DNA of 64,000 nt, from the NCBI GenBank assembly GCA_009773515.1, contig WSXX01000013.1:62001-126000 (forward strand), in the 5' to 3' direction. The DNA comes from Bacteroidota bacterium (GTDB lineage: Bacteria > Bacteroidota > Bacteroidia > Bacteroidales > Lentimicrobiaceae). The notes beneath the pieces are model-generated. The model was not told the DNA's origin. It did not search any database and saw nothing but the letters and a program-made list of their open reading frames with translations. The first letter of the stretch is position 1, and each line of letters begins with the position of its first letter. Made by a program: the position numbers and the translations under genes. Positions 56,301 through 59,020 of the stretch are shown here, piece after piece.

Positions 56301-57146
56301 TTACATTCCTCCAAATCCAGCCATTTTAGCTCCGAAAAATAATCCAACAATTCCACCTATGATCAAAGCCATAACGAAACTGATTATTATCAGCGCAATG
56401 ATGACCACCACCACATAACCAACAACTTTTTCTTTTGGAGTGTTTTTAAGTACCGGCATACCAACTGCCAGAAGGTAGATGGCATATAAGCCTATTACGA
56501 GAATAAGCATGCTGATACCAGTTCCAAAAATCAGCAAAATACCGGCAACCCACTGAGGAGTAGAAGAGTAAACGGCAAGTTGCAATGACCGCCCGAAATC
56601 CTTTTTTGAATCAAAGGAAGGGGCGAGCAGATCAATTACCCAGGCCAGCAGATATGCACCCAGCACTGCAGAGATAAGCTGTACAATCCCATATTGGATG
56701 CCGGTAGCAATGCTTCGGGAGGTATATCCCCAGAAGGTAACACCAATAACTCCGAACTTAATGAATGATGCAATCGCCGGTATAGCTGCAAGAATCAATG
56801 CATATCCAACAATCAGTTTGGTAGCGTCGGGCTTTTCAGAAGCCACCACATGCCATTCTTCCTTTGGTTTTATAAGGATATTAATTACCCGTTGAATCAG
56901 ATTTGAGGTTTTTGCATTTCCATAGACCGGCTCATTGTAAGATTGCTGAGGAGGAGCCTGATACACAGGAGGAGGAGCCTGATACACAGGAGGAGGAGCC
57001 TGATACACAGGAGGAGGTGGTGGCGGTGCAACCGGTGGCTGACTTTTTGGTTGTTCAACAGTTTCTGCCTGGCTTGGCTTTCCGCATGAGGGACAGAACT
57101 TTACTCCTTCACGGAGCTCATTTCCACAACTGGTACAAAATTTCAT
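56301..57146 (-). CDS. YIP1-family membrane protein with N-terminal zinc ribbon
   Basis: A 281-residue protein. A ribbon at residues 4-22 (CTSCGNELREGVKFCPSCG) is followed by a Pro-rich linker with three copies of PPPVYQA (about 42-70). A YIP1 domain follows, with NLIQRVINILIKPKEEWHVV as its typical entry, and five spans from about 110 to 275. Yip1 proteins shape or organise membranes in eukaryotes; bacterial roles are unknown. First gene of the operon, 39 nt before the seven-ribbon gene. The PPPVYQA repeats are short DNA direct repeats (56953-57014) and may vary in number. Confidence 0.87.
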   Translation of the reverse strand: MKFCTSCGNELREGVKFCPSCGKPSQAETVEQPKSQPPVAPPPPPPVYQAPPPVYQAPPPVYQAPPQQSYNEPVYGNAKTSNLIQRVINILIKPKEEWHVVASEKPDATKLIVGYALILAAIPAIASFIKFGVIGVTFWGYTSRSIATGIQYGIVQLISAVLGAYLLAWVIDLLAPSFDSKKDFGRSLQLAVYSSTPQWVAGILLIFGTGISMLILVIGLYAIYLLAVGMPVLKNTPKEKVVGYVVVVIIALIIISFVMALIIGGIVGLFFGAKMAGFGGM

Positions 57147-57342: not shown

Positions 57343-57472
57343 GTATTATGCAGAGATGATGGATAATAAACGTCTAAAACACTTCGACTACGCTCAGTGT
57401 GACATTCGTGTTAGGGGAGCAATGATTCTCTTTAATGCACACGTTGACAGCTATATACGATGTCCTCCTGAG
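57343..57472 (+). repeat. Composite palindromic repeat, copy B1 (truncated)
   Basis: CTTCGACTACGCTCAG (57382-57397, one change from the core) followed by TGTGACATTCG, TTTAATGCAC and ATACGATGTCCTCCTGAG, collinear with the reverse complement of 2519-2666. It ends before the second palindrome arm. Confidence 0.7.
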
Positions 57473-57488
57473 TTAAGACTCAAAAATA

Positions 57489-57640
57489 TTTGAGCGTAAT
57501 GCGGAGATGACAGGTGGAAACTGTATCAAAAACACTTCGACTCCGCTCAGTGTGACATTGGTGTTTTAACAGCGTTGTTCCACTTTAATAATTTCATTAT
57601 CAATTGAATACGAAGTCATCCTGAGCGGAGTCGAAGGATC
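57489..57640 (+). repeat. Composite palindromic repeat, copy B2
   Basis: TTTGAGCGTAATGCGGAG and GATGACAGG, then CTTCGACTCCGCTCAG (57535-57550), AATTTCATTATCAATTGAAT and CTGAGCGGAGTCGAAG (57621-57636). It matches the reverse complement of copy A through its whole length. Confidence 0.75.
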
Positions 57641-57660
57641 GGACGAACAATCCCCGGCTA

Positions 57661-57797
57661 AGCGGCATTTGCAATGCCGCTTTGAACATCATTGAATTTG
57701 TAATTCAATATATCTGCCCGACTGATTCATTCCTTAAGTCGCTTATTTGGATAATTGCAAATTATCCAGTGTTCAGAGCGGCATTGCAAATGCCGCT
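57661..57797. mobile_element. 137-bp MITE-like element with 21-bp inverted ends
   Basis: The ends AGCGGCATTTGCAATGCCGC(T) at 57661-57681 and the exact reverse complement at 57777-57797 each also form a small hairpin. The inside has no ORF. Flanking sequence (ACGAACAATC before; CGTCATTGGT after) corresponds to the uninterrupted tail GACGAACAATTTGTCATCGGT seen at 57875-57895, so it seems inserted in the repeat. It has no transposase and would need one in trans. Confidence 0.6.
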
Positions 57798-57905
57798 CAG
57801 CCGTCATTGGTCTCTCCCTTTCGGGAGTCGAAGGACAAACGATCAATCTGTCATTGGTAGCGGAGTCGAAGGATAAGACGAACAATTTGTCATCGGTATC
57901 GGAAC
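57798..57905 (+). repeat. Tail units of the palindromic repeat (GTCGAAGGA...CAATCTGTCATTGGTA)
   Basis: Two successive units, GGGAGTCGAAGGACAAACGA and GCGGAGTCGAAGGATAAGAC, each followed by CAAT(C/T)TGTCAT(T/C)GGTA. The same tail is found at 2482-2520 in reverse orientation. Confidence 0.6.
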
Positions 57906-57949: not shown

Positions 57950-59020
57950 TTACTGCCAGTCAATTTCCCCGCTTCCGTAGCAGATTTCGCTGGACTGATC
58001 GTAAATCACACCAAATTGTCCGGCAGCGACACCTGAAACCGGGACTTCTGATTCTATCACAGGTTTGCCATTCACAAACATCAGTTTACCTTTATTGAAT
58101 TCGGGCGTATGCCTGATTTTAAAAGTGATATTTGCCGGTTGACCCAGATCGGCCCATGGATTTCCCGATATAAAATTGAATCCGCTCAGTTTGATGGTGT
58201 CGCGGTATTGGGTAAGCGGATCGTATCCGTTTGAAACGTAAACTATGTTTTCATCGGTATCCTTTTTCACAACAAACCATGGCCCCTGGCTCAATCCCAG
58301 ACCTTTGCGCTGCCCTATGGTGTGAAACCAATATCCTTTATGGGTGCCGAGAACTTTGCCGGTTTCAAGCTCTACAATCCTGCCATCCTTTTCACCCACA
58401 TAACGGCGGATAAAATCATTGTAATTTACTTTGCCCAAAAAACAAATGCCCTGACTGTCTTTGCGTCCGGCGCTGGGAAGATTCACCTGGTTTGCAATTT
58501 TTCTTACTTCCGCTTTATGCAGATTTCCAATCGGAAAATCCAGCTTTAATAGCTGATCGTAAGTAATTTGCGCCAGAAAATCAGTTTGATCCTTAAATTT
58601 ATCTTTGGCGGTGGACAAATACTTAATTCCATCTTTTTCAAGGGTTGAGGCGTAGTGTCCGGTGGTAATCAGGTCGAAATCTTTTCCGTATTTTTCATTA
58701 AAACTCCCGAACTTGATCATGCGGTTGCACATTACATCGGGGTTTGGTGTGAGGCCTTTTTTTACCGAATCGATGGTATAAGCCACCACACTGTCCCAAT
58801 ATTCTTCCTGAAGTGTTACCACCTCCATCCGTAAACCGTATTTTTTTGCAAGCCAGGTAGTAATTTCGATGTCTTCCTCCGAAGAGCAATCCAGAAACCC
58901 CTCTTTATCCTTCATTCCTATAAGTATATAAAAGATCACAGGCTCATGCCCCTGCTCTTTCAGCAAGTGAAGCATAACGGAGCTGTCAACTCCTCCTGAT
59001 ACGAGTGCGGCGATGTTCAT
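57950..59020 (-). CDS. mnmA: tRNA-uridine 2-sulfurtransferase MnmA
   Basis: A 356-residue PP-loop enzyme. [16 protein letters not shown] binds [18 protein letters not shown] holds the first catalytic Cys and [14 protein letters not shown] the second. [19 protein letters not shown] and the C-terminal barrel ([14 protein letters not shown]) complete the family. It thiolates U34 of tRNA-Glu, -Gln and -Lys with sulfur from a relay. The first methionine is used; a TAATTTTG -7 box lies about 70 nt upstream with GATTTCG repeats in the leader. Confidence 0.95.

Follow-up and report, generated by a model that had tools for sequence, protein, structure and literature searches.

Described RAYT systems and the window element

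Established RAYTs bind single-stranded REP hairpins, use a 5' foot and cut at a nearby dinucleotide (PMC8266576, PMC6006769). The Bacteroidetes RAYTs of subclass 2.6 have been reported with 'atypical' flanking structures that lack GTRG (PMC6006769). TIRtrons are RAYTs lying between long, sometimes double-palindromic inverted repeats, for which the shared motif GGGGWSAS has been reported (PMC3733652). Tandem clusters have been reported for REPINs (PMC3116915).

The window, i.e., the whole stretch of 64,000 nucleotides analysed, contains a short palindromic element inside an island of other repeats. Judging from sequence comparison, this element is very probably (about 0.88) a non-autonomous, gene-less, REPIN/BIME-like miniature of a Bacteroidota RAYT transposon. 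Elements of this kind are known, namely those of the Bacteroidetes TnpA-REP subclass 2.6 and the TIRtrons. Subclass 2.6 (RAYT group 5; PMC6006769) offers a similar enzyme, a Bacteroidetes RAYT of about 180-190 aa with the NH[LIV]H and YIH[QN]NP motifs, as well as flanking hairpins without GTRG and copies elsewhere in the genome. Unlike the subclass as published, the main text on which gives no sequence plan (PMC6006769), the ends described here have a GYTRA foot and two TTTGYAA-core hairpins each, and bracket the gene in the manner of an insertion sequence. As in REPINs and BIMEs (PMC3116915), an inverted pair of palindromic repeats folds as one hairpin, is dispersed between genes with some tandem clusters and is related to RAYTs. 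In contrast to these, the window element has two hairpins per half instead of one and no GTRG foot, and the cognate RAYT is missing from its genome. TIRtrons and TIRYTs share the RAYT between long, partly double-palindromic terminal inverted repeats and the moderately abundant dispersed repeat copies, but were described in other phyla (PMC3733652). IS200/IS605 elements are similar in the HuH-Y1 transposase between subterminal hairpins, the guide-like foot and the lack of a visible target duplication, whereas the enzyme considered here is above the cutoff of the RAYT model and far below that of the IS200 model (22.7 bits, cutoff 55). A literature search for the palindrome sequence gave no match.

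Structure of the repeat island and of the element

The island is flanked by a zinc-ribbon-like gene (56301-57146, minus strand) and a tRNA-thiouridylase-like gene (57950-59020, minus strand), both named from a reading of the sequence. Its host part, recognized from direct repeats and genome matches (57343-57651, plus strand), consists of two composite palindromic repeat copies, CTTCGACTCCGCTCAG ... CTGAGCGGAGTCGAAG, with the tail GGACGAACAAT at the end. The two tandem copies described in the initial annotation were borne out, since 57373-57472 and 57526-57625 are 73% alike at a spacing of 153 bp. The reversed copy placed by it near 2482-2666 was found at 2666-2504 (minus strand), being 76% identical over 170 columns and lacking the element. 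Tail units (GAGTCGAAGGA..ACGATCAATCTGTCATTGGT and a decayed copy) were also identified at 57826-57905 (plus strand) by repeat comparison and matches to intact tails. The composite repeat has dozens of matches in its own genome, where the uninterrupted tail ACGAACAATCTGTCATTGGT is present in about 25 intact copies. What had been called a palindromic array is a repeat family distinct from the inserted element. The host repeat CTTCGACTCCGCTCAG ... CTGAGCGGAGTCGAAGGA represents an abundant palindromic family separate from the miniature element; it was absent from the flanks of the Y1 genes examined in the window's genome, and its mobiliser was not found.

The miniature element, CCCCGGCTAAG...CTCAGCCG, occupies 57652-57803 (plus strand), as delimited by the fold and by full-length copies, which end near these bases in unrelated flanks. 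The 137-bp element of the initial annotation is real, with its boundaries slightly off; the unit runs for about 150 bases. The foot GGCTAA (57655-57660, plus strand) has the consensus GYTRA according to position frequencies in 164 external and 46 own copies, and differs from the GTAG/GTGG foot of canonical REPs. It lies 5' of the left outer hairpin P1, AGCGGCATTTGCAATGCCGCT (57661-57681, plus strand), which recurs in Bacteroidota and is read as AGCGGCAT-TTGCA-ATGCCGCT. The left inner hairpin P2, ATTGAATTTGTAATTCAAT (57691-57709, plus strand), is read as ATTGAAT-TTGTA-ATTCAAT and has its TTTGYAA core at a fixed 16 nt and a covarying stem. On the right side, the inner hairpin P3, GGATAATTGCAAATTATCC (57749-57767, minus strand), is the same palindrome that is present downstream of RAYT genes at the loci L133 and L161, and the outer hairpin P4, AGCGGCATTGCAAATGCCGCT (57777-57797, minus strand), is the exact reverse complement of P1. 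P1 and P4 correspond to the perfect 21-bp inverted ends noticed earlier, and are situated inside longer imperfect arms of 51 nt (57655-57705 / 57753-57803, 82% complementary). The core TTTGYAA is common to all four palindromes on one strand. P1+P2 and the reverse-complemented P3+P4 are two versions of one end, with the plan of foot CGGCTRA, hairpin, YTGAACA and second hairpin.

As a single strand, 57652-57803 folds at -50.3 kcal/mol vs -17.1 +/- 2.8 for shuffles (z = -11.9), and the predicted fold is a long terminal stem topped by two hairpins. Considering this z value and the recurrence at 37 sites of its own genome, the element is not a product of chance. An Rfam search of the island gave sub-threshold matches throughout (eukaryotic miRNA/snoRNA models and one sRNA), which were judged to be chance. 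The first palindrome pattern, GCGGCATTNGCAAATGCCGC, was mis-specified, and its matches were near background. In some copies, the P1 or P4 loop holds an insert of 26-40 bp (L007, L011, L012 and L036 at about 520-595); the insert, AGCTTCGCTGAGCTCCCTTCGGTCGG or a longer variant, is apparently itself a repeat.

The second hairpin lay outside the search pattern used to collect the P1 copies. TTTGYAA was found after P1 in 101 of the 167 copies and on the upstream side in 4 of 167, with copies inherited together included in these counts. In 60 of the 83 distinct cases, TTTGYAA lies 16 nt from P1. The second stem covaries, with Watson-Crick pairing at stem positions 3-6 of 0.90, 0.86, 0.82 and 0.69, as compared to 0.39, 0.32, 0.31 and 0.41 for shuffled right arms.

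Copies of the element in its own genome

In the window's genome (5.03 Mb, 67 contigs), 64 pieces of the element merge into 37 sites on 28 contigs, these counts being taken from search tables and not from an exhaustive genome scan. About a dozen copies are full-length or nearly so, 87-98% identical, and have unrelated flanks. No ORF of at least 100 aa is overlapped by 12 of the 13 full-length copies checked; the element is thus dispersed, multicopy and mainly extragenic, as REPINs and BIMEs are. Tandem arrays of the element are present at C31:1-1100, C27:1-289 and C27:5011-5581, and it is at such arrays that the assembly is broken at the ends of C27 and C31. The further copies that the initial annotation proposed to look for were found in many unrelated contexts, so its reading of the element is not undone by a lack of other copies or by a single shared context. 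The identity of up to 98% would suggest that the spread was recent. At the locus L005 (G000:C14:6992-10144, about 1365-1690), the copy follows the 3' end of a gene (..GYEIVETKRKL*), and a second, diverged copy of the same 3' end comes directly after the right end of the element.

The window was said to hold no transposase, and this is correct for Y1/RAYT genes, none of which was found on contig C56. A search of the window's genome with the RAYT-clade alignment gave only distant Y1 proteins (best E 1.3e-6) and no cognate clade; a RAYT flanked by the same repeats, as known for REPINs and BIMEs, was not found in this genome. The clade alignment was needed because PF01797 alone could not single out the cognate RAYT. 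The Y1 genes of this genome were rejected as the source of the cognate enzyme, since none is of the cognate clade. As this clade is absent from the assembly, the copies are either orphaned or the gene is in a gap, the latter being possible at an assembly completeness of 97.2%.

The sole Y1 gene of this genome with element hairpins within about 1 kb, that of L036 (C46), is bracketed by a different palindrome. This gene (G000:C46:117869-121210, 1399-1869) encodes a short Y1 transposase with the YIKNQEEHH motif, resembling subclass 1.2, which is reported as being without REPs. The palindrome, CCTCCAGCTNNAGCTGGAGG, brackets the gene in five copies and has 18 occurrences genome-wide. At L122 and L116 (G018) and L121 (G013), homologues of the gene are adjoined by this palindrome or by similar ones.

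Junctions of the element

The window junction reads ACGAACAAT-CCCCGGCTAAG...CTCAGCCG-TCATTGGT. The initial annotation held that joining the flanks restores the tail seen downstream, as an insertion would leave it. The joined flanks do agree with the uninterrupted tail to within 1-3 nt, but this near match falls short of proving insertion, since the right flank is shared by copies of the element. All 7 places at which the right flank CATTGGTYTCTCCCTTTCGGG is present adjoin an element right end; elsewhere, it gives one match with 3 mismatches. Part of the apparently restored tail is therefore probably carried by the element, and a right flank that moves along in this way weakens the flank-joining argument. 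The stretch TCATTGGT..CTCCCTTTCGGG, almost exclusive to element neighbourhoods, probably travelled with many copies; the right extension CATTGGTCTCTCCCTTTCGGG (57805-57825, plus strand), common to 7 copies in the flank search, was probably carried along. No target duplication was visible in the copies whose flanks were read, and no clean allelic empty site was found, though uninterrupted host-repeat tails exist. When the window junction is compared with these tails, it is plausible that the element was inserted near ACAAT, with a change of 1-3 nt and without duplication of the target. The empty-site reconstruction is suggestive, short of proof.

A somewhat less likely course of events is that an ancestral copy was inserted once into a host-repeat tail, and that later copies, perhaps including that of the window, spread together with the host flank or by recombination between host repeats, with no fresh insertion at this site. 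The right extension TCATTGG..CTCCCTTTCGGG is common to seven copies and in several of them is followed by AGTCGAAG of the host repeat, in line with such a history. However, the left flanks of the same seven copies differ, and the full right extension is missing in the copies L004 and L005. This alternative concerns the route by which the element reached its place in the window and does not conflict with the RAYT origin.

RAYT genes between the same ends in related bacteria

Parts of the element were found in four genomes of the same genus and in one genome of another family. In GTDB genomes, the P1 pattern AGCGGCATTTGYAATGCCGCT gave at least 107 stretches, nearly all from Bacteroidota, judged by title, among the matches listed. 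A 189-aa Y1 protein directly adjoins the palindromes in genus relatives and in a subset of the scanned loci. RAYT genes flanked by the same repeats are present in the relatives G018, G006 (which over 3.2 kb does not differ from Lentimicrobium sp. RS341) and others. At the locus L197, the ends of which are almost identical in sequence to those of the window element, P1 and P2 precede the gene and P3 and P4 follow it, with a spacer of about 25 bp on either side. This order is kept with longer spacers at L161, where the gene is frameshifted, and at L133; the simple plan of four hairpins is not followed in every detail at L154, L191 and L133. The RAYT search suggested in the initial annotation thus succeeded for relatives, where cognate RAYTs lie between near-identical ends, but not for this assembly.

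The protein of the relatives scores above the cutoff of the NCBIfam RAYT model NF047646 (101.4 vs 80 bits), and its sequences contain NHVH and YIHENP, in agreement with the subclass 2.6 motifs. By phylum, length and motifs, it can be provisionally assigned to TnpA-REP subclass 2.6. In a PDB sequence search, similarity was limited to a weak match with the TnpA-REP structure 4er8 (E 0.05).

The association was also seen when RAYTs were collected by protein only, which at E <= 1e-30 gave 99 of the 295 genomes of the class. Sequences of at least 12 nt were inverted across the gene for 13 of 29 RAYTs found in this way vs 19 of 812 mismatched pairs, some of which may be matches between related families. 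On the RAYT tree, the TTTGYAA-core hairpins cluster (3 changes vs 9.0 with shuffled labels; 0 of 500 shuffles as low), partly owing to close relatives.

Several near-identical RAYT genes per genome were observed at L279-L298 (G256, G115, G144, G224, G260 and others). Some of these copies are in tandem (99%) and some are dispersed, with the similarity ending at the hairpins (86-97%), as if they were units that move. G260 has two RAYT units of about 780 bp, 86% identical and with sharp hairpin-bounded ends; G256 has two units of 707 bp, 91% identical. The units of G144 are about 680 bp long at 89-97%, most having in-frame stops. The dispersed units of these three genomes belong to clades other than that of the window element.

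Origin of the element

Multicopy dispersal, the structure described above and the identity of the ends with those of RAYT-bearing elements were observed directly, and the inserted-palindromic-element reading of the initial annotation is supported. By analogy with established RAYT systems, movement of the element would start from its two ends, which face each other and each comprise the foot GYTRA, a hairpin, a short linker and the second, TTTGYAA-core hairpin. Single-stranded DNA, e.g., in the lagging-strand template, would let these hairpins fold. A RAYT supplied in trans would bind them and cut near the foot by HuH-tyrosine chemistry; the folded strand, excised or copied, would then be joined elsewhere without target duplication. 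Such chemistry and the supply in trans are suggested by this analogy, and the element may still move.

The long imperfect terminal inverted repeats (51 nt) and the many gene-less copies could also belong to a MITE of a double-strand cut-and-paste (DDE) insertion sequence with palindromic terminal inverted repeats. This origin is highly improbable, however, as relatives have the gene of a Y1 HuH RAYT, not of a DDE enzyme, between these ends, both termini form hairpins of their own with a foot motif, and target duplication is not visible in the copies read. Equally little can be said for an immobile structured RNA or a transcription-termination or other regulatory element kept by selection between genes: the strong fold, the covarying second stem and the mostly intergenic position of the copies agree with it, but no Rfam family was found, the copies lie in unrelated flanks and tandem arrays, and relatives have a transposase gene between the same ends.

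The RAYT-derived miniature may be part of a broader picture, which is proposed tentatively. Some Bacteroidota RAYTs might be true transposons, in which the gene and the double-hairpin ends around it move together, with one hairpin family-wide and the second one variable, covarying and possibly serving to tell left from right, while gene-less derivatives like the window element spread in trans. Two features seem to be little covered in the literature, namely the fixed TTTGYAA core with the covarying second stem of the double-hairpin end, and the dispersed RAYT units with sharp hairpin-bounded ends in some Bacteroidia.

Implications for RAYTs of Bacteroidota

What was an unexplained repeat island can now be described as an element with defined ends, for which the enzyme family has been identified. 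For the 'atypical' REPs of Bacteroidota, so far poorly described, there is now a concrete plan consisting of the GYTRA foot, two hairpins and the TTTGYAA core. Furthermore, to judge from the dispersed hairpin-bounded RAYT copies found in several genomes, transposon-like behaviour seems to persist in some RAYTs, and this bears on the origin of domesticated RAYTs and REPs.
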